Assembly: GCA_003194525.1 (NCBI GenBank)
Contig: NBIV01000110.1
Coordinates: 172,517 to 236,516, forward strand
Length of the DNA: 64,000 bases
Direction: 5' to 3'
DNA from: Gracilariopsis chorda
Taxonomy: Eukaryota; Rhodophyta; Florideophyceae; Gracilariales; Gracilariaceae
Each line of letters starts with the position of its first letter. Position 1 is the stretch's first letter. The notes beneath the pieces were generated by a model, which worked only from the letters and a program-made list of their open reading frames with translations, was not told where the DNA came from and did no database searches. Below are positions 1,166 to 23,212 of the stretch, in pieces. The position numbers and the translations under genes were made by a program.

Positions 1166-2506
1166 CTACTTCTTGACCAGCGACATCATCAACATCTCCA
1201 TCATACGTTCATGTCGCTTGGTCTCTTCCTGCCGAATTGCTCGCTCCTCTGCCCGCTGCGCCGCTCTTTCTTTCCTCTCTTCCTCTCGTTCGGCCTCCCG
1301 TCGAAGGCGCTCTTCACGCTGTTCCTGTCTCCATTTCTTTTCTTCCTCACGCTCTATAGATCTCATCGCCGTGTCCTCGTCCCGCCTCGCCTGATCCTGC
1401 ATCATCTGTAGCTTGTAAAGCTCAATCAGGTCAGCACTCGAGCTTCCTGGCGTCTCTTTTGCCCCCCTCTTACGCACGATAGGGCGTGCACTGGAAGGGC
1501 TCGGTGATTTTAGGGGGGTGTTCTCGCGCGCGCAGTCTGCTGAATGCAGTACTTCTGCGCCGCTAGGGCCGTCATCGAAAGGATTAGTCTCCGGCTCCTC
1601 GTCGCCGGAATCAAATGCACAAAGGATATCATCCGAATCTTCACCTTCCCCGATGTCCGCACGTTCTGTCATACTGTAACGAATAGGTTTAGCTTTCTCA
1701 ACATCTGGAGTAATGGTAGGATCCCCAGTTGGGATCCTGCGGCGATGAAGAGAGGCAAATTTACGCTTCAAGCTGTCCACGGTGCGCTTATACTCGGGGT
1801 ATCTTTCCGAATGAAGCCAGACGATATGGTCCCATTCCTCCTTAGCGAGCGGCAAATGTTCTTCTAGAAGCTCCAGTAAACTGTCTACTCCCTGCCTTGA
1901 AAATCCCGAGCCGCGCCCCCCACTCTTCTCGATCGTCTTCTTCCTCTTACGAATTCCACCCACTACCCTCGAAGCCGACTTTCGGCCACCTCTCTGCTGC
2001 CATGCAGCAGCATGAGAGGGTACATTTCTCGTCGCTGCGGCCCCGGAGAAAGTGGTGGAGAGGTTCCGGGGCATTGGTGGGGATGCGCTAGTCGCAGCGG
2101 CATCGGGCGGAACAGACGGCAATGCACCTTGCGCGTGAGGCATAGGCGTCTCGGAGGAAGGCTGGGATGGCGATGCGGAGCGAACTTGCGGCAGAGTCGC
2201 GACCGAAGGGCTTCGGTGACGTGACAGAGAAGCTTGTGTTCTCCCGGGGTTGCATTCCGAAGAGCGTTGTACGGAGAGCGGAGCCGGTATGAAAGGAGGA
2301 GAGGGAAGCGATGGGGGCTCAGGGAAGCTCTCCGAAGGATCGTGGAGCGGGTGTTGTGCGTAGGCGGTATCTTGACCGGCGGGTGGGGCAGGGGCAAATC
2401 CGCTTGGCCGGAGGAAGTCATTCTGCACGTGCGAGGAGGTGCCCGGCGGGAGGTAGTCGGTTTTGGAAGGGGGGTAGGCGAAGGTTGGTGGACACAGCTG
2501 GCACAA
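1166..2506 (-). CDS. Harbinger accessory Myb/SANT-like DNA-binding protein (DUF6818-like)
   Basis: This intact 446-residue ORF has a Pro/Ser-rich N-terminal third, then a compact block at about residues 185-280. The block contains GSGFSRQGVDSLLELLEEHLP, an EEW core and a basic PTGDP stretch followed by a VEKAKPI segment. This is the layout of the Myb/SANT-like domain (DUF6818 type) found in transposon-borne proteins of fungi, oomycetes and plants. A Glu/Asp/Ser linker and a strongly charged Arg/Glu coiled coil (about residues 370-440) follow. PIF/Harbinger elements usually encode such a protein beside the transposase, where it helps the transposase reach the nucleus and bind the element ends. 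The convergent position next to the DDE pseudogene supports that role. Its intact frame contrasts with the broken transposase, so it could still act in trans. Confidence 0.75.
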   Translation of the reverse strand: MCQLCPPTFAYPPSKTDYLPPGTSSHVQNDFLRPSGFAPAPPAGQDTAYAQHPLHDPSESFPEPPSLPSPPFIPAPLSVQRSSECNPGRTQASLSRHRSPSVATLPQVRSASPSQPSSETPMPHAQGALPSVPPDAAATSASPPMPRNLSTTFSGAAATRNVPSHAAAWQQRGGRKSASRVVGGIRKRKKTIEKSGGRGSGFSRQGVDSLLELLEEHLPLAKEEWDHIVWLHSERYPEYKRTVDSLKRKFASLHRRRIPTGDPTITPDVEKAKPIRYSMTERADIGEGEDSDDILCAFDSGDEEPETNPFDDGPSGAEVLHSADCARENTPLKSPSPSSARPIVRKRGAKETPGSSSADLIELYKLQMMQDQARRDEDTAMRSIEREEEKKWRQEQREERLRREAEREEERKERAAQRAEERAIRQEETKRHERMMEMLMMSLVKK

Positions 2507-2687
2507 AAAGTGGCGAGTGGGAATTTGTGTTCAGCACAAATCAACCTCGCACGTGGGCGAATGCCAACCACGGAGAAAAAATGCGCATACATATTTGGGG
2601 TGATTTTGGGGCGAACAGCCCTCGAAATGCCGAAATGTGCAGCAGTAAATTGGAATTTGTGTAATCAGGAAGCACCCATTATGCAAT

Positions 2688-3426: not shown

Positions 3427-4250
3427 TGTAGTCCAGCGCCCTGAGGGAGGCATTCTTGGTACTTGAACGCTTTCCCGATATTATCGGTTGTGTAGTTTGT
3501 ATATGAACTACGCCCCATTATGGTGGATATGGACACGTGGGACACGGTTTTGGGTCAATTGGCGGTTGGCTACAGTAGTGGATGTTGCTACGAAATGTGG
3601 AGTATTTTAGTTGATTTTATTTATTATTTTCACACCCATTTCTGGGAAGCTAGTACTTAGTGCGACGGCACGCTGCCGTCGCACCAGTAAACCTTCCCCA
3701 ACAAGGGACCCTAACCTGAGGAATTGGCTCTAGTTTTTACCGCTTGCGCGCGTGCTCTACTCCTTCTTGGAGGGAAACGCCGTGAACCACGGGACATCTA
3801 ACCCCCTTGCACATCTAAAGTGACCCATCACTGGGAGTCATATTATTCCAATTGCATTGGTGTTTCGCCCTGTATAGGGATATTGTTACCGGCATCGCCG
3901 TTCGCCCCCTTAATCTCGCGACTCACTTCGTCCTCTCTTCCTCCTCTTCGCCCTTCCTTTTCCCCTTTCTAGGGTAGCACCTCACGCTATCCGCGGCCCT
4001 CGTGTGCGCATCCGCTAACACACCCCCACTTACGTGGAAACCTACCTCTGGCGAGGACGCATTCCCGCTCTCGCGGATACCGAATCTTGTCCTAAACCCT
4101 CTTGCACTAGTCGCAAAGGGTGGCCTCGGTCTTACAAACTGGCTCAGCCGTGCCACCCCTAGAGGGGCTCTACCGGACTGGGTTCACCTCCACGGAGGAA
4201 AGATCCCGAACTTCTTTCGGTGTTTCTCCCCTTTGGGGCGTTGCACCACA
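3427..4250 (+). repeat. Rt1 5' LTR
   Basis: This 824-bp LTR (TG...CA) matches the 3' LTR at 34047-34879. Other copies of the family in the window are a fragment at 1-387, a solo LTR at 36426-37257, and the outer and inner solo LTRs at 39085-40750 and 39654-40480. The short ORF beginning MSHVSI or similar found in several copies lies wholly in LTR sequence, antisense to the element. Confidence 0.9.
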
Positions 4251-4355: not shown

Positions 4356-5030
4356 ATGTCGAGAAATCCCTCCGATGCGGAGCCAGTGGTGACGCGTAGT
4401 CGCTCCCGCGACAACGCGGACACTTCCGAAGTTCGGTTCGTAGCCCGTATCCCTATACGGACAAGTTCCAGCCGTGCTGGCGCCGCTTCATTGCGGAATG
4501 ATACCCCCGACCTGGAACCCCGGAACCTCCTTTTGCCCTCGTTATCACCACCGCAGGAGAATGCAGCATCGACTTCGGCTGTTGCCGCAGTGCCCCAGGC
4601 ACCCCAGCCTGCTCCCGCTGTCGCGGCTTCAAGCCCCCATGGAACTGGCAATAACACCCCCCAGGGCACTTCCCTGGAATCACAGGTCCGCGCTTTGTGG
4701 ACCGCCCATGACACCCTTTTAGGGGAACTAAAATCCCTCCAAGAGGTGGTCTTGGCAACCCCCGTAAAGGAGGTTGCCGAGGAACTCCGTATTTTACGGT
4801 CTGACGTCAATTCCGTGTTGGAGAGTTTGGGACAACCCGCCACCTTCATCGAAGGAGTTGAAGCCCGATTTGATCGGATTGGTGCCCGCCTGGAGACGCT
4901 GGAGCAGTTCTTCCTCATGGACAAACCATCCCCGGATGATCCAGTAAACGAGGCATCGCACAACGACCAGCTTGCTGGGAAGAAGAAACGGCGTCATCGA
5001 CGGAAACACCACCAAAAATATTCGGACTCT
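4356..5030 (+). pseudogene. Rt1 gag, N-terminal part
   Basis: The ORF opens at ATG 4356 and reads 225 codons before running into the Rt2 LTR at 5031. It shows an N-terminal basic/Ser region, a Pro/Ala-rich linker, a predicted coiled coil (about residues 108-190, with repeated EEL, LRSDV and RLETLEQF) and then a Lys/Arg/His cluster. The same order occurs in the Rt3 gag at 20856-23003. About 270 codons that should follow, holding most of the capsid-like domain, are absent. The frame resumes at 27638 at the motif LRAR. This is the 5' piece of a gag that is both interrupted and internally deleted. Confidence 0.8.
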
Positions 5031-5802
5031 TGTAGAGCAATACCCAGAGATGGGAGCAGACACACAAGGCTGTTCGACGTCCTCCTCTGTGAGGGTAGCG
5101 CAGTGGCAAAACCACCTGTGGTGAGCACACGAAGCCGGGTGTAAGACCGGGACTCACCGTCACGACTAGCGTACAGGTGTAGAAACCACGACAGACCACG
5201 AAGTGGGAAAGCGGAAAATGCAGCGACACACGAGTGGTGGGCGACGCGCAAGAGCGGTGGGGTGTCCACACGAGTGGGGCGGTGGTAGCGAAGCAACAGT
5301 AATCACCGGTAGTCGCAGAAACAACGACACCTGTATACGGGACAAAAGAACAATGACCGCTGTAAAAGTGCGCACAGAAACAAACACAGTAGTGGTAAGA
5401 ATGTGCTGAAGCTCCACGAGGTGGGTAACTAGGCCTTCACAGGATGGCGTCTCTCCAGATGGAGGTGGACACTCACCAGGGAACCTGAGTTAGAGCCAGA
5501 CACTCGCTTGTTGCGTTTACTTAGACCTGGGCAGCCGGAGCTCACACACATAAGTAGTGGTGGCCCCGCCCTGACAGTACAGTAGTAATTAACTAATAAT
5601 ATCCATAAGGGGAAGCGTAACTATACACACGTGTGGCACAAGCCAGCAATGCTGTGCACTACACTTGTGAACCAAATTGGGGCCCTTCAAACGGAAACAA
5701 CATACTGTTGTAACACTCATACTCCATGGTAGAGAGGTTAGCATCGCCAACGCGGAATATGACTGCACCACGTGCTGATACCGCTATTAGCGTTGCACTT
5801 CA
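5031..5802 (-). repeat. Rt2 3' LTR
   Basis: This 772-bp LTR begins TGTAGAGCAATACCC and ends GCGTTGCACTTCA on the plus strand. It matches the right-hand LTR (26134-26279 plus 27011-27637) nearly base for base. Both termini resemble those of the Rt1 LTR (TGTAGTGCAA and TTGCACTTCA), so Rt1 and Rt2 belong to related families. Confidence 0.88.
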
Positions 5803-5818: not shown

Positions 5819-5872
5819 GAGCAAGAACCACCTCTGAGGAGTGTTCGTGGCGACATCGCGTTGTGCGTAAAT

Positions 5873-7735
5873 ATGTCCGCGTCGAGCGATGGCACGTTAT
5901 CCGACTCGGGGTTCTTCATCACGCAAGTGGACATACACCAAGAGCAGCTCGACAACTGTACTTCTCCGCCTATTCCGCGACGACCTTCCTTGTCTTCCGC
6001 TCCTACTGCGATGAATCCGCACGACACCAATCCGCATGGCGGGAACGATCTTCCGCCATCGGGTTTCTTCTCCGGCTTTCTGACTGCACCACTCCTGTCT
6101 TCTGCAGGTCCTCCAACCAACGCCTCAGGCGGTATACCTGCCACTCCGAGCATGTCGGTTCCATCGCCTGCGGCGAGCGCATTACCTTCATATGATGAGC
6201 TCGTTTCCGTTGATCCGGCCGAACATCCGTCTCGCTACAGCGGTGCGCCCTGGTTTCACCCAACATTGGTGCAGCATGAAGACCTCATTGAACAGTACGC
6301 TGATGGTAGTGGGCTCCTGCCGGGTGATCTTCATGTTTGGATGACACTCAGCTTCGACTGGCGTACCCGGGTTGCCATGCCAACACACGTTCTGGTCCAC
6401 CGTCGTGGTGAGAATGGGGCGCAAGCGCTTATCGCGATGATTCAACTCGCGTATCAGCGTGTGTATCGGACTCCTTCGGAATTCCCGGTCCCGGAAGAAT
6501 ATCACTTTGATATCGCATTCTACCGAACCCAAGGCGAGATGGGATATGGCGACCGCTTAGCAGCGTTGGCTCCGTCCATCCCGGAACGGGGTCCGGCAGC
6601 AACAGTCCACCAGAACTATCTGTGTTGGGCGAGACCGATCCTTCGTGCTGAGTTCCGTTATCTTCGCCATCATCCGCGGTCTAACTTTCTCCAGATGATC
6701 CGTTTCGAACGTCGCTCGCGATCCCGCTTCGGGAATATGATACCGTATCAGAACTTTGAAGCTGAGCGCATCCGACCGCAGTACATACGAGGCCGTTACG
6801 TTCCCCTACCCAGGATGTGGGCTGCCTACGAGGCTTGCAGGGATTGCTATATCGAGCTTCCGCCGTGCATCACCTTCATCGTTAGTCGACTGTGCAGCAA
6901 TCCATTCTGCGGGTGGTGGTCCGTTGTACTCACTGAGTGGGTCGCCCGCGCAGCGGCGTATCTTCTCTTCGAGGTCTACGACCAGTTCAGACTGTGGTAT
7001 ATCCCTCCGCGAGTGCGTAGCGGCATCTGTGAAGTGGATCTCTCCCTCGTTCTCGGCGGTGCCGGCAACTATAATGAGGCGCTCTCCCTGTTGGACGCGA
7101 TGGACCAGGTTGAATGGAACAGTATTCCCATTCAATGGAGTCGCCGTCATCAAGGTACCAACCCAGCCGACCGGTCTCCGGGGCGCCGTACTCCGTTAGC
7201 GGGTGATTACGTCTACTAAGATCCTGTAGAGCGTCGTTTCATCTCCGAACCGGAAGCATTGGCACTCCGCGATCGCGAGCGAGTTGTTCCACCGGGTCAT
7301 CCGACGGGCTACATCGTCACTGACGGATACTTCCAACCCTACGAGGAGGCCGATCCAATGATGGACAATGATCCTCCCACGACTGGGGTGGGCGCGAGCG
7401 GTGGCGATGGCCTTTCCTCAGCTGAGGGCTCCGGGATTCCAGCGTATACCACTTCGGGTCCGTCCGTGGCTCCTCCGGCTGGGCCAAGTCACGTTCTATC
7501 ATGGAACATTCCCCACGTCGGTGGTGGTCCCTTCCATACCGCTCCAGTTGGAAGTAGCGCGCCATCGGCGGATGTGTCCGGTCAAGACCGTGCAGCCATC
7601 ATTGTCCAATTCCTTGGCGAACTAGGAATGGATACTTCGGGATCTTCCGTTTACATCTCGCAAATTCGGGCGGTCATGCTAGCGCGGCTGGCGCAGCCAG
7701 GCCATCCTCATCAGAGTGGTGGTCCATCCTCTTGA
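5873..7735 (+). pseudogene. Rt2 antisense ORF (conserved retroelement protein of unknown function)
   Basis: This long ORF lies on the plus strand, opposite to gag-pol, between the chromodomain and the 3' LTR. It reads 448 codons from ATG 5873 to a TAA at 7217-7219, then stays open in the same frame for 172 more codons. The product aligns from end to end with the intact Rt3 ORF at 13988-15715. Shared blocks are GAPWFHP/NAPWFHP, an EQY/DQY box, EFRYLR, an ERR(S/T)RSR box, GRYVPLP/GRYVPIP, a Cys-Gly-Trp hydrophobic helix, DLSLVLG/DLSMVLG, a DQ..W box, PGR..LAGD and HPTGYI/QPTGYI. The stop replaces a residue that is Tyr in Rt3. I recognise no known domain. It is not an RT, protease, integrase or typical envelope with a signal peptide. 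Conservation between two diverged elements argues for past selection. Confidence 0.75.
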
Positions 7736-7827
7736 GGGAGCAAAGCGATGTTCCCAACGGTTGGCTTCCACCGTCCCTGATAGTGGGGGTCGTGGTAGTA
7801 GTAAGCGGGGGGAATTACGTGTTAACG

Positions 7828-7833
7828 AATAAA
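7828..7833 (+). terminator. Poly(A) signal AATAAA downstream of the Rt2 antisense ORF
   Basis: AATAAA lies 92 bp after the stop of the antisense ORF. Rt3 has AATAAA 75 bp after its copy (15791-15796), which supports a separate plus-strand transcript. Between here and the chromodomain (8029) is only a CT-rich stretch with a 23-bp direct repeat near 7900-7945. Confidence 0.5.
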
Positions 7834-8028
7834 CGCTAAACTTCCCTCGTGGGGCTTGTGTCTTTTTCTTCTTTTTCTTCTTGCTTCTTCCTATCCATGG
7901 TCTTCATCTTCTCTTCATGAGCCATCTTCATCTTCTCTTCATGAGGTTTCCAATCTTCTCGTCTTCTCGAGGCCTCCATCTTCACACCGGGAAACCGGGC
8001 TCGCGGTTCACCTGGTCAATTCAGTGGC

Positions 8029-11000
8029 TTACCCAACGAGCGCACGGTCAATTGTGCCGGGTATTCCCGTTCTGGTACGGTGGTGATACTGCACGATTTT
8101 CGATCGGGGCAATTTCTCTACCGGTTCGTCCGTGTCATGGGACGGCGGGTACCCATACCAGCGTACTTGGTACCGAATATATCCCTCTGGGTTGTAACTG
8201 TGCCCGACGATACGGTTGATAATGAACTCCTTCGAGTAAACATCACGCTTCGCGGTTCCGGTTGCAGTCCGCACGATGGTAGTTTCCGACGGCGGAGCCG
8301 GTGATGGCTCCGTCCAACGGTTCCTGTCGCTCGCTTGCGGCGTCGGCCACGGGATTCCCTGATGAGGTTAAACTGAATTCCTCGTTGAGGTTGAGTATAC
8401 CCCATTGGGTTCGGGAGATCGTACCGCTAAACTGCGAATGCTTCCTCGTCCCATTTGTGATGGTTGGCGACGGGGAGGCGGTTCATGGGCCACGGCGCGT
8501 GCCGGTTGGCAAGGCGTATCCAAATGGTTGGCTGTCGTCATCCTGTACTGCAGAGGTGTGTCACCATGAGTGGGGGTGCGGTGCACATCTCGCAACACGT
8601 GGCGGTCCGGCTCTCCTGCATATGCAGTGTGGGCCACCCCTGCTGGGGTTGACTGAACCAGTCTTTCACTACTGTGAGCTGAATCCAGATGATCTGAGCT
8701 GCTCGGTACAGTACCAGAGAGACTTCCTCTGATGAGAGACGATTGAAATTCAGATAACCCATCTGTGGGACCATGAGCATCCCTTTGCGAGGGTGTAGAA
8801 ACGTCCTGTACATCAGGGTTCCATAAGTCGGGATCTGGCGTGACTTCTTTAGTCTGCGCTGCAGCGGCGGGGCTCCTTACGACATCCTCGACGGTCGTCG
8901 GTGAGTGGGGAGCCAACGGAGCGTCCGGGTTCTGAGCCGGGCTTCCTGCGTCCATTCCTCCAATGGGAGATGATACAACAGCGTCCGTGTCCGGTGGCCT
9001 TGACAGCGTCTCGCGAGTGCGGTTGACAGTTCGCTCCCTCAACGGAGGTGACTGCGTAGCGTGCTCACGAGGCTGCCCATCGGCGGGGCCGGTCCTCCCA
9101 GTCTGCTGAGGTAGTTCCACGCGTGCGGCGGTAGCGTGCGATGTCCCTACTTCAGGTTGCCGTGTCTCACGAGAGTTTATCAGAGCTCGCGACAGCGGTG
9201 TAGACTTCGCTGAAAAGCGGGATTGACTGGCCTACTCCCCCTCCTTAGCCGGGGCGGCGACAGGGCTTGAAACAACGTCTGACGGTGGTTCGACACGCGG
9301 CGTAAAGCGTGAACGAACGTGTACCGGAGTTTCCGAAGATTGCTGCGACAGCATCGGTATGTCCGACAGTCCTCTCGACGGGCGCGCAACCCTAATTGTG
9401 CGGTGCAAGGATCCTGCTGCGGCAGTTGGAATCAATTGAGCGTCCGGGGTTCGGGGAGCAGAAACGACTTCCGAATGCGGGTAAGGGGCTCGTACGACAC
9501 GATCACGGCTGAGCCGTTCCTGAGAATCACCAACTTCCAGTACAACTGTTTCTCGGCTCACCGAAATGACTTTGTAGGGTCCATCCGCAATGGGCGAGAG
9601 TTTGTGGCGTTTCTCCTTCTCAGGGTTGTAGTATTCCTTCCTGACGAAGACGAACTGTCCTGCATCCAGCGAGGGAAGGGGCCGACGGGGTCGGGCATCG
9701 AAATTTCGTTGATACGCGCATTGCGCTCGCTTCATTGAAGATTTCGCGACCGGGACCATCCGTGTTAGCCAATCCTTCCATCGGAGGTAATGATCAACCG
9801 TTGACGGGTACCTGTCCTGCGTTGACTGCAACTCTATCGCCACAGGCAGCGGTGGACGCGAGAGCACCAGCTCGAAGGGTGATAAGCCGGTTCCTCTGTG
9901 TACCTGCGTATTATACGCGTATGTCACGGTATCGGTGTACAAATCCCAAGTACGAGGGTGCTCAACCGTATATGCACGCAGAGCGGACAACCATGTTCGG
10001 TTAAACCGTTCCACCTGCCCACTAGCCTGGGGATGGTATGTCGTTGTAAACAGATTCCTGATGTCAAGTATTCTACAAACGTCTTGGAAGAAACGTGCGG
10101 TGAACTGCGGTCCCTTGTCGGATAAAAGACTAACCGGTGGACTGTAGACGAGAACCCAGTGACGGACGAATGCTTCGGCCACTGAACATGAGGTAATCTT
10201 CTTCAACGGTACAGTCCCGACGAGTTTGGAGAACCTATCCGTTATTATGAGTAGAAACTTGTTACCACGTGAAGTGTGAAGGAACTCACCGAGGATATCG
10301 ATAGCGACAAGTTCTAACGGGGCCCGTGCCGGGAACAGGGTCAACTTCTTCGCATAGCGGCGCAGTTTCACTTGTTCACGAGCATAGTGAGTACAAGACG
10401 GAACAATCGCGTAGCAATCCAACGCAAGTGCGGGCCAGTAGAAATGCCAACGTTACGTCGTGTAGAGCCTCCTTCCACCAGGGTGTGCAGCTAACTTCGA
10501 GAAATGCGAGAGATGAAATACTCTCGACTGAAGGGAGTGGGGAACCACTATTTGTGACGAAGAAGACACAGTCCTTACCAAGTAACCTTGTGAGTCAGCT
10601 CCAAAAGGAATGTGGGCGCCTCCATTGAGTTGGGCACGAATCTTCGTACAAAACGGGTCTCCATACTGTTCGCGGATCATCTCTTCGGAAGTGATCGGTG
10701 CAAAGGATCCGGTATCCGGTTCGCCACCGTCAGCAACGAGCAGATCATCAACAATTTCATCTGAAACCAGATCATAACTTGAATTCTCTTCAAGGAGGAA
10801 ACAAGGGATATCATCGTCATCGACGGGAAGGGTTTCCGCTTCCGTTCCTAAACGAGATAGAGCGTCAGCCTGGTTATTTAGGGAACCCTTTTCATAGAAG
10901 AATTCATAATCGAACTCAGCGAGGCGTAGTCTCCAACGAATCAGGCGGCCCGAAGGTTCCGTGACGGACATTAACCAACGCAAAGCGGAGTGGTCCGTAC

Positions 11001-13307
11001 TAACGGTGAAGTGTGCGCCCATCAGATATAGTCTGAGTGTTTGCAGAGCCCATACCATGGCGACGCATTCCTTTTCAGGGAATGAGTAGTTCCGTTCGTG
11101 GACGTTGAGCGTTCTGGACCAAAAACCGATTGGTTTTCGTTCCCCATCGGGAGTCGTTTGGAATAACGCACAACCAATTTGGTAATCACTCGCATCCGTA
11201 TCCACGGTATAAGGTAACCCATCCTTAGGCAACGATAATATCGGTGCAGAGGTGACAGCCTCCTTCAGAGAGTTGAAAGCTTCCACCTGTACAGGGTTAA
11301 GGGGGCCCAGTTTTGGCGGTTGTCCTTTTCTGAGAAGATCATTAAGGGGTCCTGCAGTCTTTGCGAAGCTTGGAATGAACCGTCGATACACGTTACATAA
11401 CCCTAGAAAGGAGCGGAGTTCCGTTTGGGTTCTCGGGTGCTTGGCCTCTTTGACGGATTTGACTCGAGCTTCCTGTATCAGCAAGCGCCCAGGGCGAATG
11501 ACATGGCCCAGGTACTTAACCGACTCGTTAAAGAATTCGCACTTCCTCAGCTTTAGGGTTACTCCAGCATCACGCAACGTGGTCATGATTTCACGAACGT
11601 GTTCTAAATGATCATCCAAGTTGTTGGAGAAGACTATGATATCGTCAAGATAGATGAGGCAAGATCGCCATTTGAAGCGGGCCAAGAGGATATCCAACGC
11701 ACGCTGGAAAGTAGCGGGAGCGTTTGTTAATCCAAACGGCATACGCTTAAAGCGGTACAAACCTGAATGACAGACGAAAGCAGTCTTATCACGGTCTTCC
11801 GGTCTTACTGGTACTTGCCAGTATGCCCAGTTCGCATCCAATGTGGAGAAGACAGTCGCCTCACCGAGAGAGTCAATATACTCATCCATTCGCGGTATGG
11901 GGTACACGTCTTTCACGGTGGCGGCATTAAGGCGACGGTAGTCGATGCAAAAACGCCAAGTCCCATCGGGTTTCGGAGCCAGTACTACTGGGGATGCCCA
12001 CGGTGATTGAGCGGGCTCTATCACGCCTTCGCGGAGCATTTTATCCACATGAAACTGTTCCTCCTCCCTTGCCTTGGGGTCTGCCCTATAGGGGTGTTGA
12101 GCAATCGGCTTGGTGTCCGGTACTACATCAATCCGGTGTTCCGTGGCCGAGACCTCCCCGAGGGATCCATCCAACATTGAGGTGAACTCTCGCAACATAT
12201 TTCGCAACTTCTAGCGGTGCGAATACGGTACATGACCGAGATCCAGATCTTCTAATTCCTTTACAGGGTCCAAATTATCGTAACTCGTAGGAACGGCCTT
12301 CTTTTCTGAATCTTTCGTGTTGAGCGACTCCACAGAAGAGTGGGAACCCTCCCCCTCCTTAGCATGAGGCGTATCATTTCGTTCTTGAAGTAATTCGAGT
12401 ACATCGGCTGCGCACACCTTTGTAGGGATTAAAGCCGTTGGATGCGGAAGTACAGTACCAACTACTTGGTTCTTCGCCAGGTACTGCGGCTTCTTGCCAA
12501 AGTTGGCTATCAAGACCTGAAAGGGGTGTTCATTTGAGATCTGAACGACACCATTAGCCAGGGCCAATTGATACTTCTCGTACAGCGAGGGGAGCGGTTG
12601 AACAACACGCAATCCTCTTGGAGCGGCAGTTACTGAAACCCACGCCTGTGATTCGGGGGGTATGGAGATTGGCCGTGCGACACGTAGCTTGGGCGACTCC
12701 TTTGGAGGGGACGAATCCTGCAAGGGGACCGGAAGAGGAACCAACGTGGATGAGGCACGCCGTAATTAACGACGAACTATCGGAATGATGGAACCATCTT
12801 CTAGTTCAACTTCTCGCGCACGTGGACGAATTGACTCTACGAAGCGATTGCAGAAGTCACATCCCAAGATAACGGGGGCCGCTAGTGTCATACAGACGAT
12901 TAAGTCGAGCTGCATCGAACAGTTACCAATCCTGATCATCAGAGAAACCGTACCAGCCGTTTTCAACGGGTTGTTATTGGCATCAGCAACGTCCATGACG
13001 GGTCCTTGTCTAACACGAGAACGCACTTCAGGCGGTAAGAGAGATTCGACAATGAAATTGGGGCCGGCACCTGTATCCAGAATAGACAGATGACGCACCA
13101 TATACTGGGCGGAAAGGCCAAAATCAGCGAAAACTTTGTAGTTTCGCTTGGCCATTACCATGACTCTATCCGGTGACCGGTGATTCTTACACCGTATCCA
13201 CGGGCGACGTAACTCACCAAGGTGGGCCGAGTCCACGTCTGTGGTGGTCAATAATTTCCTTGAAAGGATCTTGACCGGGGAGCGAGGCTTTGACGCCTCG
13301 GGCGCCG
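8029..13307 (-). pseudogene. Rt2 pol (protease, RT, RNase H, integrase, chromodomain), disrupted
   Basis: Reading leftward from the Rt3 insertion site, the region encodes an aspartic protease (LDTGAGPNF near 13060-13090), reverse transcriptase with the YLDDI catalytic box near 11640-11660, RNase H, and an integrase with HPGGR and FYWP zinc-domain remnants. The integrase core has AIDILG, a modified LLSDKGPQF box and a QVERFNRTW box. A GPYKV module, a long Pro/Ser/Thr linker and a chromodomain (8029-8274, EFIINRIVGH...YQVRWYGYP) follow. In-frame stops occur near 12763-12765, 12208-12210, 10450-10452 and 9232, with frame changes in the linker. The second integrase Asp box reads SDKG instead of SDNG. 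Rt3 separates this pol from its gag at 23823-25873. Confidence 0.85.
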
Positions 13308-13312
13308 ATGAC

Positions 13313-13366
13313 TGTGATGCAAGGAGTATCTTGGTCATCCGAGTTACTCCTTGCATCACAAATTCG
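13313..13366. repeat. Extra 54-bp fold-back segment at the Rt3 3' end
   Basis: Between the left TSD and the 3' LTR lie 48 bp that form a hairpin. The arms are TGTGATGCAAGGAGTA and its exact complement TACTCCTTGCATCACA, with 16 bases between them, followed by AATTCG. Each arm copies the first bases of the Rt3 LTR. AATTCG repeats the spacer that lies next to the 5' LTR before the PBS. The right end of the element has no such addition. Confidence 0.8.
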
Positions 13367-13929
13367 TGTGGTACAACCACTAGGGGCGCGAGGCCACTCG
13401 GTAGCGATGTGGATGTCCACGAATTACCCTGATAATAGGGGTGCCGCTTGCGGCGGCAAGGCCTAGGGGTGCTTCTGTCCGGGTAACCGGGGTTCGGTCG
13501 CGTGAGCACGGGTGTAGCACGGGAATCCGTGTGGGGTGGAAGCTTAGCGGGAGACTGCAAGTTATAACTAGTCCGGAGGTCCGGTTAAGGCTCCTGGAAC
13601 TAGGAACTTGGGTTCCGTGCCCGATGATCTTCCAGTTTACTGAGGTGCGACCCTTCCCGTCACTAAGTACTGCGGAGTGCCGCACTAGCTACAGTAAATA
13701 ATATTCGAAATATCTAGATAATTCTAAGTAGATGGCCCGTGGCCAGCACCTACTGTGCACATCCCAAATAAAGTGGAAATCCACGTATGAACCGCACCCG
13801 CTCGTGCATCGCTCAGTGTCCCCTTGTGACAACCCTCGGGTTACCGAAAACACGTGTGACGTATGAACCGTCGCGTATCGACTTGGTGATTTCCGCACCT
13901 CGGATGACCGAGTTACTCCTTGCATCACA
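13367..13929 (-). repeat. Rt3 3' LTR
   Basis: This 563-bp LTR reads TGTGGTACAACC...TTGCATCACA on the plus strand. It pairs with 23218-23780 and differs at three bases, all between about 13590 and 13630. Confidence 0.9.
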
Positions 13930-13945
13930 TATCCCCCCCGTTAAG
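13930..13945 (-). other. Rt3 polypurine tract
   Basis: On the minus strand CTTAACGGGGGGGATA abuts the 3' LTR, the standard plus-strand primer position. Its G run and trailing A match the tracts of Rt1 and Rt2. Confidence 0.65.
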
Positions 13946-13970
13946 AGCGGAGTATATCGGCGAATTCGCC

Positions 13971-13978
13971 TATATAAG
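13971..13978 (+). promoter_or_regulatory. TATA box upstream of the Rt3 antisense ORF
   Basis: TATATAAG lies 41 bp inside the element from the LTR and points toward the antisense ORF. Transcription starting about 30 bp downstream would begin after the ATG at 13988. The effective start codon may therefore be the next in-frame ATG at 14105. Confidence 0.55.
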
Positions 13979-13987
13979 GAGCGAACA

Positions 13988-15715
13988 ATGTCGCGGTATC
14001 GCAGCATTCGGTCTGCTTCTCCCCCTCACTCCTGTGAAAACCAAGCTCTCATCGAACACGACACTGATACCGGCCACCTCAGCGCTTCTGAATTCCAACT
14101 AACGATGCAACCATCTGAGAATCCCCAGCAACCCCCTTCGCACCCTTCTGCATCAAACTCCGGACCCGTTCCGACCACGGCATCAGTGCCACTGCCTCAG
14201 CCTCAGCCTTTGCCGTACATACCGGCGTATGTCTCGAATTCCGCGGTTATCCGCCCTCCTCAGCGACGCATCCATCAGTCATTCCCGCACCCTGCGGATT
14301 TAGTGGGCATTAATCCCTTAAGCCGCCCCGAGGCGTTTGCTAATGCTCCGTGGTTTCATCCACAAGGGGTGCGCGATGAGGGCCTCCTCGATCAATACCA
14401 GGTCGCTGGGCGTCTTTCCGATGGACTCCCGCTTCATGCGGTGTATACTGACGACTGGCTCGCGCACTGCGCGCTCCCGGACAACTCGATATCGCGGTAT
14501 GGCAACGAGCGTATGCACGAAGCGCGGGTGCGCTTCACCAAGCTGGTGTATCAGCGGATACGCCGCATCATTGGAACAGTCCCTCTGGACGATGCGTGGG
14601 AATTCGACACCTGGTTGGCCAGAACCAACGGCGAGGCTTACGCCTACATAGAGCAACTCGGGGATCTGCCCACTCGACGTTGGCGAGGGACCCATGGCGT
14701 TCGCCAGGAGGCACTCTGTTTCCAGCAACCACTTTTTTGCGCGGAGTTCCGCTACTTGCGCAAGCGCGACATCCCTTTCTGGGAATTCGCTCGTTGGGAG
14801 CGACGAACCAGGTCAAGACTGGGGTACCTCGTTCCATATCAAATGGTCGAGGTTGATCGCGTTCGGGCATCTGCTCGGCTTGGCCGATACGTTCCAATTC
14901 CAGATCACTGGGCTGCAATTGAGGCTCCTCGGGGTTGCCCAGTGGAGATTCCTCCGGTTATTACTTACTTAGGCTCTCACCTAGTGAATGATCCCTATTG
15001 CGGGCTCTGGGTCGTGGCACGCACGGAATTCATTGCCAAAATGGCAGTCTTCATCCTGTGGGATGCGTACGACACCTACCGGGTGTGGTACATGAGTCCG
15101 ACGGCTCGGGAGTACGCGAGAAATCTCGATTTGTCTATGGTGCTTGGCTCTCGCGCCAACCAGGAAGACTTTCGTCACCTTATGAACGTCGTGGACCAGA
15201 TAAACTGGGACTTGGTACCAGCTGATCAAGCAGCGCGAGGTAATCGTTCGCGACAGCGCGAGTATTCCCCCGGTCGGACGGCTGATGCCGGAGACTTCGT
15301 ATGGTATGATCCATGGACCCGTCAGCATCTGACATCCGAGCAGGCTCGGTATTTGCGGCAAAACCCGCGGGCTCAACCGGCTACCCAGCCAACTGGCTAT
15401 ATTTTCGAGCCGGATGCGGCCGTGATGGACTATATGTCCGAGGATGGAGATGCTGATTACAGCGAAGAGCCATACGAGATGGATACCGAAGCTCCGATTC
15501 CGGAAGAGGACACCACGTTCAACCCGTTACCTGTGAACCTGGGCTACCAGCAGCCTCAGCAGAATTCTGCGGATGACGAGTCTGAGCTTGAGCTCTTGAG
15601 GAGGTTCCTCGAAGAGGCGGGGGTTCCCTTAACTTCCGTTCAGGGGGACCGTCAGCATCTGCTGGGGTTGCTCCGTGCCAATCTCGGTCAGGATCCGAAT
15701 GAGCCGAGCGCTTAA
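13988..15715 (+). CDS. Rt3 antisense ORF (conserved retroelement protein of unknown function)
   Basis: This intact ORF gives 575 residues from ATG 13988, or 536 from ATG 14105 if the TATA box at 13971 sets the transcript start. It lies opposite to gag-pol, between the chromodomain and the 3' LTR. After a Pro/Ser/Gln-rich N-terminal region of about 100 residues comes a folded-looking core with NAPWFHP, LLDQY, EFRYLRKRD, ARWERRTRSR, PYQMVEVDR, GRYVPIP, a Trp/Phe-rich hydrophobic helix (CGLWVVARTEFIAKMAVFI), MSPTAREYARNLDLSMVLG and PGRTADAGDFVW. An acidic tail ends in a short Leu-rich helix. The full length aligns with the Rt2 copy at 5873-7735. No signal peptide, zinc finger or enzyme motif is evident. 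Antisense ORFs at this position are known in some plant gypsy lineages such as Tat/Grande, but I cannot show homology to them. Confidence 0.8.
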   Translation: MSRYRSIRSASPPHSCENQALIEHDTDTGHLSASEFQLTMQPSENPQQPPSHPSASNSGPVPTTASVPLPQPQPLPYIPAYVSNSAVIRPPQRRIHQSFPHPADLVGINPLSRPEAFANAPWFHPQGVRDEGLLDQYQVAGRLSDGLPLHAVYTDDWLAHCALPDNSISRYGNERMHEARVRFTKLVYQRIRRIIGTVPLDDAWEFDTWLARTNGEAYAYIEQLGDLPTRRWRGTHGVRQEALCFQQPLFCAEFRYLRKRDIPFWEFARWERRTRSRLGYLVPYQMVEVDRVRASARLGRYVPIPDHWAAIEAPRGCPVEIPPVITYLGSHLVNDPYCGLWVVARTEFIAKMAVFILWDAYDTYRVWYMSPTAREYARNLDLSMVLGSRANQEDFRHLMNVVDQINWDLVPADQAARGNRSRQREYSPGRTADAGDFVWYDPWTRQHLTSEQARYLRQNPRAQPATQPTGYIFEPDAAVMDYMSEDGDADYSEEPYEMDTEAPIPEEDTTFNPLPVNLGYQQPQQNSADDESELELLRRFLEEAGVPLTSVQGDRQHLLGLLRANLGQDPNEPSA

Positions 15716-15894: not shown

Positions 15895-18800
15895 CTAGAC
15901 AATTTGGGAGTCCCCCATGATACCGACGAGAGCGTCACCCAAGTTCGCCGGTAACGGCAATCTCCTCCAGCGGTGATACCGCACGACATGGGATCGGGGG
16001 ATATTCTCGATCGGTTCCCATGTGTCCGCTTCAGGCGGGTACTTGTACCATCGAATTCGATAACGGGGCTTGAGGTCCTCCTCGTCATACGCGTGATCGG
16101 CGATTCGGTCCATCACGTATTCTTGCGGAGAGCCGCGCTCGTCTCGCTCTACTGAGCTCCCATTCTCCGGGGATTCCCGACTATCCTCCGGCGGAGTAGC
16201 CGGACTTTTCAGCTCCTTGGCTGTTTTTGCCGGTGCGGGTTTTCGTTCTCCGCTAAGTGATTTCGGGCTATTCCCGGTTCGTGTTACTCCCGGCTGGTCC
16301 GGACGGTTTAGCGAAGACGCAGCCTCTTCTGCTGCTGTACGCCTGAGGTGTACCTCGCTATGCGAGGGACTTGGAGACGAGATAATCTCGGGGTGACTGC
16401 TCTGGGGAGTCTTGTCGGCAAGGGCCGGGGTCACGGCGGATCCGTCCGCTGGAGGCGGCTTCCTCTCTTCCACCGTTGTGGGGTCAGCGCTTACGCTCTT
16501 TTCCTTTGGAGATGTTCTCCGTTGTAGGGGCAGGTTCGGTGGGCCTTCTTTCTGCTTGGTATCGTCAGCGGAATCGTCGTCTTCTTCACGCATTAGTGGT
16601 TGCTGTGGGGGCGGATGCTTTCCGTCGGGAGGCGGTTTGGTGTGAGTGACACTCTGGTTCGGCCAATCAGAGGCCTTCCAAGATGTGGGCTTGGCCACTG
16701 GGTACGGGTGGTCACGTGACGCTTCCCCTGTGCGCAGGATTTGGTTCAAATAACCGTCACGCGCTGATATACAGCGGGGTGTGACACTTACAGTACCATT
16801 TGGTGGCGGTTGTGCGCCGGATATATCGGGAGGCGGAACGTCGGACAATTCCGGGCTGCTGATTGGCTGAGAGATGACACTTGTCGTCGATTCGCCTTGA
16901 GTGGCCCCCACTGGCCTTGATGCGGCGGCTTGTACGGGCGTTCCGTCTCGCACGGGGTCAGGGGCTGTTACCACACGGTCTCGTGAAATTCGTTCGACGT
17001 TATCGTCTTCCTTGCGGATAACCACCGTCTCTGAGTCGAGTTCGACTACTTCATATGGACCAGATACTACTGGGGATAGCTCATGTCGCCTCCGGAGTTC
17101 ATTCCTTCCTTCTCGCGTCGTAGCGTCCGGACGCTCAATACGCACGAACACGTGACCTCCGACCCGGATATCCGGAATAATGGGGCGTAGTGTGGCATCA
17201 TAATTCCGTTTATATCGGGCTTGGGCCTTCGCTAGCTCTCTTGCGGCCTGTTCCGCGCGTCGTCTCAGGTCATCCCTCCACTTGAGGTGGTGTGAAGCCG
17301 GTGTCGGCGCCTCCAACTCGCTGTCTTGGTCCAGTCTGACTGGTAGAGCCGGCGGGCAGCGCGCCAAGACCAGTTCGAAGGGTGCCATTCTCGTCGTCGA
17401 GTGAACTTGCGTATTGTACGCGTAGCACAGCGTGTCTGTATACAAGTCCCAATCCTTGGGGTGGTACGTCACGTAATGCCGAAGAGCGGCGAGTAGCGTG
17501 CGATTGAAACGCTCCACCTGCCCGTTTGTCTGCGGATGGTACGTCGTGGTAAACACGTTCTTCACGCCGAGAATGCGGCATACGTCCTGAAAGAACTTCG
17601 CAACGAATTGCTTCCCATTATCTGATAATAGATTCAACGGTGGTCCGTAGACGTAGACCCACTCTCTGATGAAAGCTTGCGCGATTGCCGCGGCCGTGAT
17701 CCGCTTCAGCGGGACTGTCCGAGTCAGCTTCGAGAAGCGATCCGTGATTACCAGAAGGTATCTATAGCCTCGCTTTGTGCGAATCAGTTCCCCTAAGATG
17801 TCAATGCTGACGTACTCTAAAGGCGCTTTCGCCGGGAACAGCTTCAGGGGACGTTTCCGTTTCCACAGCTTAATGCGATTCTTCGCGCAGGTTGTACACA
17901 ACTTCGCCGTGGCGTGGCAGTCCATTGCCAATGTTGGCCAATAAAAGTCTTTCCTGAGAGTCCAGTATAACTTTGTGCCACCTGGATGTCCAGATAACTG
18001 GGAGTAGTGTGCGAGATGCAGTACTCTGCTCTTCAAGACGTGTGGAATCACGATCTGGTCCTGTGCTTCGACAGTTCGAACTAACACTCCTTGCTTGTCA
18101 AGGCCAAAGGGTAACCCCTCCCACCCGTTAAGACGGGAGCGTATGGAGGTGCAGAAGGCATCTGCGTGTTGCTCACGTAGAAGCTCTTCTAACGAGATAC
18201 GCTCGAGTTGTTCCGCCGGTGCGGTGTCTGTTGCTTGCGCAATTAGCAAGTCGAGGGTGAAGTCATCGTCGTAATCCGTGCAATGTTGCGCGCCGGCATC
18301 GGCTTGGAGATGAGGTGAGTCCTCAGCGAAGAGACAAGGGATGTCATCATCGATTTCAGTTTGGGTTTCTCCCAGTGTTAAGAGCCGTGATAAGGCGTCG
18401 GCATGGACGTTGGAGCGCCAATTTTTGTACTTGAATTCGAAGTCGAATTCCGAGAGGCGTAATCGCCATCGCATTAAGCGTCCCGACGGCTCGGATATAG
18501 AAAGTAGCCATCTGAGGCATGAATGGTCCGTATTGACGGTAAAATGCACCCCTTGAAGGTATGGTCGGAGGGTCGTAAGAGCCCAGACAACCGCAAGGCA
18601 TTCCTTTTCAGATACCGAGTAGTTTTGTTCCGCTGATTGCAGCGATCTGGACCAATAACCAATAGGTTTGCGTTCGCCGTCAGGATATTCCTGGAAAAGG
18701 ACACAGCCCACTTGATATTCACTGGAGTCAGTGTCGACCACAAAGGAGAGTCCCAGTTTTGGGAGGGCCAATACGGGTGCTGTGATCAGCGTCTTTCTGA

Positions 18801-20580
18801 GAGTTTTGAAGGCATCCGTCTCGGCTTCAACGAATTGTTTGAGTTGGACGGGCTGTCCTTTCTTCAATAATGCGTTCAACGGCGCGGCTATGTGTGAGTA
18901 GCGCGGGACAAATCGTCGATAGACGTTACATAACCCCAGAAAGGCACGCAATTGTGTTTGTGTTTGCGGGGGTGTGGCTTTGCGGATAGCCGCGGTTGCG
19001 ACTTCGTCCATCTCCAGCTGTCCTAGTTTGATCAAATGACCAAGGTACTTGACTTTATCCGTGAACCATTCACATTTCTTTAGCTTCAAAGTAATCCCAG
19101 CTGACTGGAGCTTTTTTAGTATCAACTCGACGTCTTCAAAATGGTTCTCCATGTTCTTACTGAAAATGATGATATCATCGAGATATACCAAGCAGGTCTT
19201 CCACTTGTAGGATGACAAGATGATGTCCAGGGCACGCTGGAACGTAGCTGGCGCATTAGTGAGGCCAAATGGCATGCGTTTGAATCGGTAAAGACCGGCG
19301 TGGCACACGAAGGCCGTTTTGTCGCGGTCATCATCCGCGATGGGCACCTGCCAGTACCCGGAATTAGCGTCCAGCGTAGTAAATACGGTGGCATCACCGA
19401 GGCTGTCGATGCATTCATCCATTCGGGGTAAGGGATACGTATCCCTTACGGTCACTGCGTTCAGTTTCCTGTAATCCACGCAAAAGCGTAATGAACCATC
19501 CGTCTTCGGGACGAGCACCACTGGGGAGGCCCAAGCGGATTGTGCGGGCTCAATGACCCCCTTTTCAAGCATGTCATCCACATGCTGTTGTTCGATTTCT
19601 CGCGTTCGGGGTCCAGCTCTGTAGGGATGCTGTGCAATGGGTCTTGTACCCGGGACGAGATCAATATGATGCTCTGTTGCGGCGATTTCGCCGAGGTTCC
19701 CATCCCACATGGACGAGTATTTCTGCAGTAATCTGCGTAAGCGATCCCGGTACTCCTCCGGTACATGGAACAGGTCCAATTCGTCAACTGACGGGAGCGC
19801 TTTAGCTAATTCCCGGTCTCCCGGTGTCGGTACTTGCTCCAGTTCAGCGGAAGTTGACAGCGAGATCTCGTCCGGCAGGGGTATCCTTAATACTTCCGCT
19901 AGGGAAATGTGCGTCGGTATGAGTACCGTGGGATGTGGTAAAGCCACGGCAACCATCTGATTCTTGTGAAGTTTCACAGGATGATTGGTGAAGTTGCTAA
20001 TCAACAATCGGAAAGGTCTGTTAGGTTGTACCTGGGCAACGCCGTTGGCGGCGGTAATTCCATTACGTTCGTAAGTGTGAGATAAGGGTTGAATCACGAT
20101 AAGTCCGTGGCGTTGTGTGGTTACGGTGACCCACGTCTGAGATTTTGGAGGAAGCTCCACCTGTTCCGCTACCTTAATCTTTGGAGAGGTTCTCCCACTA
20201 GGTCCAGCGTTCTGGGATGGGGGCAACGGCCCTGAATTGGCAGCCGGTTGCAGGGGTCTGCGCACTATTGGTACGGTGCTTCCGTCATCCATCTCCACTT
20301 CCCGAAGGCGGGGTCTTATTGCTTCCACATAGCGGTCACAGTAGTCACATCCAAGAACAACTTGGGCAGCCAGTGTCGAGCAGACAATGAACTCCAACAT
20401 GACGACATGGTTTCCCAAACGGACGACGAGGCGTATGGTACCTAGACATTCTAGAGGCTTCTTGTTTGCGTCCCGGACATCCGGTAGAGGACCGCTTCGA
20501 ATGCGGGTCCGATCATGAGGGCTGAGTTCAGATACCCTGATAAAATTCGGTCCTGCGCCGGTATCGAGTACCGCAAGACG
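15895..20580 (-). CDS. Rt3 pol: protease remnant, RT, RNase H, integrase, chromodomain
   Basis: This frame is open for 1561 codons (first ATG at 20418). In order it holds the protease active site LDTGAGPNF (about 20550), reverse transcriptase with FRFCVDYRKLN and YLDDI boxes (YLDDI near 19185), RNase H with VVDTDSS and TDHSCLRWL, integrase zinc domain (HYSQLSGHPGG...CTTCA), integrase core with SIDILG, SDNGKQF and NGQVERFNRTL, and a SGPYEVV module. A Pro/Ser/Thr linker of about 250 residues and a chromodomain (about 16125-15970: EYVMDRIADH, RYRIRWYKYP, DTWEPIENIP) complete it. Pol lies in the -1 frame relative to gag and overlaps its end, and the frame stays open upstream except for TGA at 20581-20583 and 20596-20598. 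These stops separate it from gag, so this copy is probably dead unless they are read through. Confidence 0.9.
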   Translation of the reverse strand, partial: RLAVLDTGAGPNFIRVSELSPHDRTRIRSGPLPDVRDANKKPLECLGTIRLVVRLGNHVVMLEFIVCSTLAAQVVLGCDYCDRYVEAIRPRLREVEMDDGSTVPIVRRPLQPAANSGPLPPSQNAGPSGRTSPKIKVAEQVELPPKSQTWVTVTTQRHGLIVIQPLSHTYERNGITAANGVAQVQPNRPFRLLISNFTNHPVKLHKNQMVAVALPHPTVLIPTHISLAEVLRIPLPDEISLSTSAELEQVPTPGDRELAKALPSVDELDLFHVPEEYRDRLRRLLQKYSSMWDGNLGEIAATEHHIDLVPGTRPIAQHPYRAGPRTREIEQQHVDDMLEKGVIEPAQSAWASPVVLVPKTDGSLRFCVDYRKLNAVTVRDTYPLPRMDECIDSLGDATVFTTLDANSGYWQVPIADDDRDKTAFVCHAGLYRFKRMPFGLTNAPATFQRALDIILSSYKWKTCLVYLDDIIIFSKNMENHFEDVELILKKLQSAGITLKLKKCEWFTDKVKYLGHLIKLGQLEMDEVATAAIRKATPPQTQTQLRAFLGLCNVYRRFVPRYSHIAAPLNALLKKGQPVQLKQFVEAETDAFKTLRKTLITAPVLALPKLGLSFVVDTDSSEYQVGCVLFQEYPDGERKPIGYWSRSLQSAEQNYSVSEKECLAVVWALTTLRPYLQGVHFTVNTDHSCLRWLLSISEPSGRLMRWRLRLSEFDFEFKYKNWRSNVHADALSRLLTLGETQTEIDDDIPCLFAEDSPHLQADAGAQHCTDYDDDFTLDLLIAQATDTAPAEQLERISLEELLREQHADAFCTSIRSRLNGWEGLPFGLDKQGVLVRTVEAQDQIVIPHVLKSRVLHLAHYSQLSGHPGGTKLYWTLRKDFYWPTLAMDCHATAKLCTTCAKNRIKLWKRKRPLKLFPAKAPLEYVSIDILGELIRTKRGYRYLLVITDRFSKLTRTVPLKRITAAAIAQAFIREWVYVYGPPLNLLSDNGKQFVAKFFQDVCRILGVKNVFTTTYHPQTNGQVERFNRTLLAALRHYVTYHPKDWDLYTDTLCYAYNTQVHSTTRMAPFELVLARCPPALPVRLDQDSELEAPTPASHHLKWRDDLRRRAEQAARELAKAQARYKRNYDATLRPIIPDIRVGGHVFVRIERPDATTREGRNELRRRHELSPVVSGPYEVVELDSETVVIRKEDDNVERISRDRVVTAPDPVRDGTPVQAAASRPVGATQGESTTSVISQPISSPELSDVPPPDISGAQPPPNGTVSVTPRCISARDGYLNQILRTGEASRDHPYPVAKPTSWKASDWPNQSVTHTKPPPDGKHPPPQQPLMREEDDDSADDTKQKEGPPNLPLQRRTSPKEKSVSADPTTVEERKPPPADGSAVTPALADKTPQSSHPEIISSPSPSHSEVHLRRTAAEEAASSLNRPDQPGVTRTGNSPKSLSGERKPAPAKTAKELKSPATPPEDSRESPENGSSVERDERGSPQEYVMDRIADHAYDEEDLKPRYRIRWYKYPPEADTWEPIENIPRSHVVRYHRWRRLPLPANLGDALVGIMGDSQIV

Positions 20581-20855: not shown

Positions 20856-20865
20856 TTAGTTTTCC
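20856..20865 (-). promoter_or_regulatory. Candidate -1 frameshift site at the Rt3 gag stop
   Basis: GGAAAAC directly precedes the gag stop codon TAA, and pol is in the -1 frame. Rt1 (28317-28326, GGAAAAC-TAA) and Rt2 (23823-23832, GGAAAAC-TGA) have the same heptamer, the same spacing to the stop and the same frame relation. It is not a textbook X XXY YYZ site, so a programmed shift is inferred from conservation only. A GGGG-AG-CCCC stem can form just downstream in Rt3, and a TCTCT-AGAGA stem in Rt2. Confidence 0.5.
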
Positions 20866-23194: not shown

Positions 23195-23212
23195 TTCTAG
23201 GTCGGGAGACCA
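23195..23212 (-). other. Rt3 primer binding site
   Basis: On the minus strand TGGTCTCCCGACCTAGAA begins 5 bp after the 5' LTR. It is identical over 18 bases to the Rt1 site, although the LTRs of the two elements do not resemble each other beyond a few terminal bases. Confidence 0.7.

Follow-up and report, generated by a model that had tools for sequence, protein, structure and literature searches.

An antisense accessory gene family in chromodomain Ty3/gypsy elements of the red alga Gracilariopsis chorda

Nested elements and their antisense frames

The window (the whole stretch of 64,000 nucleotides analysed) originates from the red alga Gracilariopsis chorda and contains three Ty3/gypsy elements, which are nested as Rt3 in Rt2 in Rt1. 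Their LTRs and coding regions were located as follows.

3427-4250, plus strand: Rt1 5′ LTR (93.8% identity to 34047-34879)
34047-34879, plus strand: Rt1 3′ LTR (self-comparison and reading of the flanks)
5030-5802, minus strand: Rt2 3′ LTR (self-comparison with 26133-26286 and 27006-27637)
8032-13357, minus strand: Rt2 pol (in-frame stops interrupt it; the chromodomain lies at 8032-8232)
23823-25727, minus strand: Rt2 gag (separated from Rt2 pol by the nested Rt3)
26133-27637, minus strand: Rt2 5′ LTR (split match, interrupted by an insert at about 26280-27005)
13358-13929, minus strand: Rt3 3′ LTR (99.3% identity to 23209-23780; element on the minus strand)
about 13930-13940: Rt3 polypurine tract, read as its complement, directly after the 3′ LTR
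15895-20580, minus strand: Rt3 pol, protease-RT-RNase H-integrase-chromodomain (PF00078, PF17917, PF00665, and PF00385; protease assigned by position)
20856-23099, minus strand: Rt3 gag (PF03732, E = 4.2e-8)
23209-23780, minus strand: Rt3 5′ LTR (self-comparison, partner 13358-13929)

The two Rt2 LTRs matched at 98.3% over 632 bp, and CCTCT was present on the outer side of both Rt1 LTRs. The chromodomain of the Rt3 pol frame was located at residues 1488-1530 (PF00385, E = 4.1e-8). Judging from its LTRs, gag, RT-RNase H-integrase order, and chromodomain at the integrase C-terminus, Rt3 is classified as a chromovirus, i.e., a chromodomain Ty3/gypsy element.

Rt2 and Rt3 carry homologous antisense frames between pol and the 3′ LTR, as the first-pass annotation had proposed; their products aligned with 35% identity over 392 positions (E = 8e-68). 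The accompanying claim of a long ORF in both elements held for Rt3, whose single frame is open from 13772 to 15715 (plus strand), runs opposite to gag and the pol-chromodomain frame, and ends 179 bp short of the latter, but not for Rt2, whose frame begins at 5714 (plus strand), is open to a stop at 7217-7219, and is then open again to 7735. L011, a sister copy of the Rt2 gene, is open throughout. The starts first suggested (5873 and 13988) are probably wrong, as a conserved methionine was found at 6011 in Rt2, at 14105 in Rt3, and at a comparable position in every family that was read. This start codon is 139-221 bp inside the LTR edge, i.e., outside the LTR.

6011-7735, plus strand: Rt2 antisense accessory gene (broken by the one in-frame stop)
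14105-15715, plus strand: Rt3 antisense accessory gene from the conserved start (536 aa; ORF list, homology, and conserved methionine)
13787-14104, plus strand: upstream in-frame extension into the 3′ LTR, open in Rt3
5868-5873, plus strand: TATA-like box, proposed antisense promoter of Rt2 (65 bp inward of the LTR edge)
13971-13976, plus strand: TATA-like box, proposed antisense promoter of Rt3 (41 bp inward of the LTR edge; judged by consensus and position only)
33950-33956, no strand: Rt1 deletion junction (antisense gene of the relatives, L042 907-2684, missing; TATA-like box kept)

The Rt3 extension is probably a leader and not protein, because the matching Rt2 segment is less constrained (dN/dS of 0.40 vs 0.13) and the matching segment contains a stop in the L018 group. 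A TATA-like box precedes the conserved start in six of eight families (none in L039 and L041), and in all six the first ATG at least 25 bases behind the box is the conserved start; these counts come from a test devised after looking at the sequences, in families related by descent. Because the conserved start stands behind such a box in these six families, the antisense gene may have its own promoter.

Copies, selection, and loss in the Rt1 lineage

The antisense gene was found at 302 or more distinct places in the G. chorda genome (fragments included), which is beyond chance. These copies form eight diverged families and many are intact; stop-free matches numbered 66 among 78 scored in one young family and 62 among 76 in another. 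Protein identity between families was 29-60%, and the products were alignable although synonymous sites were near saturation. The gene was antisense to pol and 3′ of it in all nine gene-carrying elements that were read on the pol side (Rt2, Rt3, L039-L044, and L053; pol is broken in several), and it has the position that defines an aORF-3R, a long ORF that runs opposite to gag-pol and sits between pol and the 3′ LTR. For at least 74 of the 146 RT matches, an antisense partner was listed on the opposite strand, 3,060-4,156 bp away in the 3′ direction; on the same strand the count was 0 of 146. A further 71 were without a listed partner, and the partner count is a lower bound; equating this state with lack of the gene was rejected, as L053 has an intact gene and no listed partner. 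Among RT matches at least 77% identical to Rt3, 27 of 32 had a listed antisense partner. The deep split of the antisense-gene tree agreed with the pol tree. As expected of an aORF-3R, the gene was present in most family copies and conserved like other element proteins, the exception being the Rt1 subfamily.

Between two sister subfamilies, the dN/dS of the core was 0.131 (72 pairs), with an unsaturated dS of 0.33, and substitutions at codon positions 1, 2, and 3 were 0.057, 0.037, and 0.207, respectively. Among the other frames, low dN/dS (0.21-0.26) was seen only in the mirror frame, a frame with shared third positions and 20-21 stops. The low core dN/dS and the predominance of third-position changes mean that selection acts on the protein. 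The antisense gene is therefore protein-coding and under strong purifying selection between lineages; the proposal of a real conserved gene stood, and the test of whether conservation tracks only RNA came out against RNA. The other suggested sign against a gene, dN/dS near 1 across many copies, was approached within recent copies (0.55 in the Rt3 family, and 0.77 and 0.81 in the Rt2 clades), but not in the core between lineages. Values of 0.55-0.81 are those expected for differences arising after insertion and give no evidence of selection.

Rt1 lacks the antisense gene, as first noted, but this is not the original state: its closest relatives carry the gene, and the loss is a secondary deletion. 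The same deletion junction was found at 40 or more places; a single deletion removed the gene from the Rt1 subfamily. Splicing was dropped as the cause, since inspection by eye found no fitting sense-strand sites at the junction. One Rt1-type element read had long open gag and pol frames (pol, 1742 aa) and no antisense gene. A lineage without the gene has thus been amplified, with gag and pol open in one member; therefore, the antisense gene is a conserved accessory gene that is not strictly needed in cis.

Protein features and searches for relatives

The Rt3 product comprises a proline-rich N-terminus, a conserved core, an acidic linker, and a short C-terminal helical segment, the last taken from the first structure model alone (15 sequences; pLDDT of 48, i.e., poor). 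Ten of 11 products had a best 19-residue hydropathy of 0.93-1.48, and the remaining one reached a borderline 1.65; the rule of thumb for a membrane segment is 1.6. In agreement with the initial view that no known domain is present, scans against Pfam, PHROGs, and NCBIfam yielded no family above the cut-off, with weak Pfam hits only (best E = 0.018). Single and profile sequence searches of PDB found nothing, and Foldseek against PDB and BFVD, as well as VIA-align, gave nothing usable. Viral and prokaryotic contigs gave 19 and 21 pattern matches, respectively, and no relatives; all named relatives were red algal. No DNA-binding domain was recognised in the product, which counts against a regulatory role; nor was any known enzyme domain, which is in line with one. 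The plant TRP28 domain (PF04195) had no match up to an E of 10 in 10 family members (A3) or in the six-frame genome, where a single hit below the cut-off came from the 14 controls, leaving the sensitivity of that search unproven; membership in the TRP28 family was rejected on these two results. Origin as a Gag duplicate was likewise rejected (hhalign probability of 0.2% against a 4-sequence Gag alignment).

Possible function of the antisense product

Among the systems with which the gene can be compared, neither Grande nor RIRE2 is a chromovirus, HBZ belongs to the bZIP proteins, and VANDALs are Arabidopsis transposons of another class than the LTR elements studied here. Retand is also a non-chromovirus lineage, in which, according to passages of one study, 97% of clusters encode TRP28 (PF04195) (PMC11963269). 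Most copies of Grande (GENE23), RIRE2, and Retand are likewise described, in parts of another source, as having one long antisense ORF between pol and the 3′ LTR, and GENE23 as having a nuclear product and its own promoter (PMC7264820). The suggested parallel with plant Grande-type elements was borne out in position and strand but not in domain content: the red-algal carrier has a chromodomain, and PF04195 was not found in its antisense protein. Outside plants, brtn of Boty/BcGypsy1 in the fungus Botrytis cinerea is also described as antisense between pol and the 3′ LTR (PMC7264820; PMC8365987, one passage citing Zhao et al. 2011), a likeness of position and strand in a fungal rather than a red-algal host. 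Retroviral antisense genes, HTLV-1 HBZ among them, are presented as having a promoter within or beside the 3′ LTR and a regulatory role (PMC7264820, PMC11963269); unlike HBZ, the red-algal protein has no Pfam domain above the cut-off. Antisense accessory genes are thus already known in plant and fungal elements, and what is new is this protein family, in red-algal chromodomain elements.

As proposed for plant antisense genes, the product would most likely be a trans-acting regulator of the element. The gene would be transcribed independently of the genomic RNA, from a TATA-type promoter of its own immediately inward of the 3′ LTR. The soluble product, with its presumably disordered N-terminus, conserved core, acidic linker, and C-terminal helical segment, would act in trans, and most likely as a nuclear protein, on transcription of the element family or its silencing. 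Rt1-type elements would either receive the product in trans from relatives that carry the gene or manage without it. We give about an even chance to this reading as a whole, namely an accessory gene of a red-algal chromodomain Ty3/gypsy clade whose soluble nuclear product, made from its own promoter, controls family expression in trans.

A strict anti-silencing factor, binding element DNA and removing or blocking host repressive marks in trans, is a less likely alternative. VANC of VANDAL transposons, an accessory protein proposed to act in trans, is a precedent in manner of working only, and an independent gene with many copies, whose loss in a sister lineage could be made good in trans, would fit; however, an arms-race protein is expected to change faster than the core does. 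We also find it doubtful that the product is a replication cofactor that binds element RNA, cDNA, or the preintegration complex and assists in packaging, import into the nucleus, or the choice of target. The agreement with the deep pol tree and the strong constraint are in line with such a role, but a gene antisense to gag-pol needs its own transcript, the product has no similarity to Gag, and an amplified lineage, including the copy with long open gag and pol, lacks it. Rather improbable, in our estimation, is a new-fold protein, expressed from an antisense promoter of its own, that opens up, in trans, the silenced chromatin of elements of its family. If so, Rt1-type elements would be free riders that dropped the gene, kept gag-pol, and still multiply at a cost to the relatives that carry it.

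A captured host gene, or the leftover of another transposon, carried as a passenger is very unlikely: named relatives are confined to red algae, but the constraint spans many families and the deep split follows pol. No free-standing host relative was noticed among the best-scored candidates, which carries little weight. There is hardly any probability that the antisense RNA itself matters (e.g., through dsRNA control of the genomic RNA, to whose 3′ part an antisense mRNA would be complementary) and the reading frame is incidental; the third-position pattern, the frame-specific dN/dS, and the alignability of the protein between families contradict it, and 3000-35500 gave zero Rfam matches. The envelope-like role first entertained, or a movement protein giving an infectious stage, matches only the placement between pol and the 3′ LTR and is extremely unlikely in view of the antisense orientation and the lack of a membrane segment, hydropathy exceeding the rule of thumb solely in the borderline product.

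The role of antisense genes in LTR retrotransposons is described as an open question in the passages of one source (PMC7264820). Such a gene is here seen in hosts only distantly related to plants and fungi; its protein shows no match to the plant domain, selection at the codon level is clear, and intact copies are very many. A natural sister lineage misses just the antisense gene, and the member that was read has both gag and pol open. Since gene-bearing and gene-less lineages occur in one genome, the question of function can be tested by comparing both.

Nested elements and their surroundings

Three Ty3/gypsy elements form a nest, in which Rt2 is inserted into the gag of Rt1, and Rt3 lies inside Rt2. 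Matches to Gag, RT, RNase H, integrase, and the chromodomain are present in Rt3, where 179 bp separate the end of the antisense frame from the pol frame.

LTRs of the three nested elements
3427–4250 and 34047–34879, element on plus strand: Rt1 LTRs, 93.8% identical to each other, with CCTCT at the outer side of each
5030–5802 and 26133–27637, element on minus strand: Rt2 LTRs, the second one interrupted
13358–13929 and 23209–23780, element on minus strand: Rt3 LTRs, 99.3% identical to each other

The primer-binding site TGGTCTCCYGACYTAGAA, located just inside the 5′ LTRs (4254, ~26129, and ~23208, respectively), is common to Rt1, Rt2, and Rt3, and the same tRNA therefore probably primes all three; ARAGORN found no tRNA genes in the window. 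The insert in the Rt2 5′ LTR (26280–27005, ~726 bp) has TACAG on each flank and, by eye, TG...CA ends; it contains a tandem repeat (26327–26437) and probably represents a solo LTR from a different family. Directly outside the Rt3 3′ LTR, a 48-base hairpin-like stretch (13313–13360) represents the U3 end of the LTR in both orientations, with 22 bases identical to the inner end of the Rt3 LTR, and looks like an aberrant integration end. Further Rt1-LTR-like stretches, some inverted, surround the nest (1–390, 36421–37261, 39085–39653, and 39654–40750), and the frames at 260–1012 (plus) and 1166–2530 (minus) resemble, by eye, a Harbinger-type transposase and a Myb-like partner.

Selection on the antisense frame and its product

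The ORF running opposite to gag-pol, between pol and the 3′ LTR, is almost certainly an accessory gene that codes for a protein and is under selection. For the 72 pairs formed between 9 loci of one Rt2 subfamily and 8 of its sister subfamily, NG86 gave a dN/dS of 0.131 in the conserved core of the product (dS 0.33), 0.225 in the segment preceding the core, and 0.403 upstream of the conserved start methionine. The corresponding substitutions at codon positions 1, 2, and 3 were 0.057, 0.037, and 0.207 in the core and 0.176, 0.168, and 0.265 in the upstream stretch. Across three pairs, the antisense frame showed dN/dS values of 0.10–0.13 and at most one stop; its mirror frame, sharing third positions with it, reached 0.21–0.26 yet contained 20–21 stops, and the remaining four frames ranged from 1.8 to 5.8. 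The core was also more constrained than a C-terminal stretch of pol in the same lineages (228 codons, two pairs; 0.45–0.57). Recent copies compared among themselves gave values of 0.55 (Rt3) and 0.77 and 0.81 (Rt2 clades), as expected if most of their differences arose after insertion. Between families, protein identity was 29–60% and synonymous sites were near saturation.

The product consists of a proline-rich N-terminus (11–15% Pro), a core of ~365 residues with 54 invariant columns in an alignment of 10 members, and an acidic region (pI 4.1–5.1 in all 10 products extending that far), with a C-terminal helical segment predicted in a poor structure model only. The best 19-residue hydropathy was 0.93–1.48 in 10 of the 11 products and 1.65 in that of locus L039. 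Two relatives found in protein searches (P0015 and P0016) terminate in basic stretches, which by eye could be nuclear signals. A second structure model, based on 19 sequences, was mostly helical (pLDDT 69, pTM 0.68) and had no match in PDB or BFVD; a model of this quality leaves room for a new fold without establishing one.

Start codon and candidate promoter

A methionine, chosen by eye, precedes the core at a similar place in all 11 products, as MN in eight of them. The LTR edge, recognised by the C-rich complement of the polypurine tract, lies 139–221 bp ahead of it in eight families. The leader between the two carries a TATA-like hexamer in six of these families, at offset 63–66 in Rt2, L043, L044, and L053 (the last with an additional box at offset 35) and at 41–43 in Rt3 and L040; none was found in the leaders of L039 and L041. 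Counting from 25 bases behind the box onward, the first ATG is the conserved start in all six box-bearing families. The presence of a box at offset 58–70 in four of eight families was matched by none of 5000 shuffled-leader trials, where the motif set and window were picked after inspection and the families share descent. Judging from these leaders, the antisense gene likely has a separate promoter of its own.

Distribution, possible exchange, and absence of the gene

In the assembly of G. chorda (Rhodophyta, Gracilariales; 91.3 Mb, 1081 contigs), at least 302 distinct places, fragments counted, matched the antisense protein when the results for six query proteins, five of them encoded in this genome and one from another source, were united. 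This is a lower bound, since only part of the matches entered the union (66 of 73, with seven fragments omitted, 32 of 86, 78 of 78, 64 of 81, 76 of 76, and 8 of 82) and the searches score best candidates only. Scored matches were stop-free in 66 of 78 cases for the L043-type family and 62 of 76 for the L053-type family. L053 and six further elements (L039–L044, several with broken pol) likewise have an antisense frame 3′ of pol. Among 146 RT matches, 74 had a listed antisense partner on the opposite strand, 3,060–4,156 bp in the 3′ direction, and none of the 146 had a partner on the same strand; one has the deletion junction, and 71 had no listed partner, which does not mean that the gene is absent, because L053, initially placed in that group, carries an intact gene. 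RT matches at least 77% identical to Rt3 had a partner in 27 of 32 cases. In protein searches (~8,000 best candidates scored in each), relatives with an organism name were red algal, including hypothetical protein BWQ96_08668 of Gracilariopsis chorda (P0011, 96% identity) and eight 'unnamed protein products' of Agarophyton chilense, also of Gracilariaceae; the viral and prokaryotic contigs searched yielded no relatives.

The RT+integrase tree, with some pol rows assembled from broken frames, and the antisense-core tree gave the same deep split (support 100 in each), separating Rt3/L039/L040/L041 from Rt2/L042/L043/L044/L053. Within the latter group, the positions of Rt2 and L053 differ between the trees, and the antisense genes of L042 and L043 are 97% identical although their pol sequences are more diverged, suggesting that elements have exchanged some of their sequence. 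When L011 is compared with L018, and likewise in two similar pairs, the gene is more diverged in its first half (0.78–0.88 identity per 250 bases) than in its second half and most of the flanks, and dS is 0.13–0.15 in the pol C-terminus vs 0.33 in the antisense core; this pattern suggests segment exchange between subfamilies.

Rt1 grouped with L054 and L042 in the pol tree (support 97 and 99). Relative to L042, it is missing bases 907–2684, which contain the whole antisense gene from the conserved start; the TATA-like box is retained. The junction stretch (33650–34046) occurs in one piece at 39 other places (40 including Rt1), with 93–95% identity. At one such locus, L054, the pol frame is open over 1742 aa, and the gag frame covers 522 aa before running into the end of the examined stretch; the locus lacks the antisense gene save for 27 codons of the leader. 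Eight junction loci are 80–88% identical to one another over 2.8–3.3 kb; thus, the gene-less elements represent an established subfamily. The antisense gene is therefore dispensable in cis, or else its product is supplied by relatives.

Among the open-licence papers listed in searches on retrotransposons of red algae and other algae, judged from titles and the first part of the abstracts, none dealt with an antisense gene of this kind in red algae; an earlier record may exist. The antisense ORFs of Retand elements carry TRP28, and a regulatory role has been proposed (PMC11963269); TRP28 was not found in the red algal antisense product. From where the gene lies, what looks like its own unit of expression, its architecture, and its dispensability, we infer that this product may have a regulatory function, a statement that, taken whole, we give an even chance of being correct.
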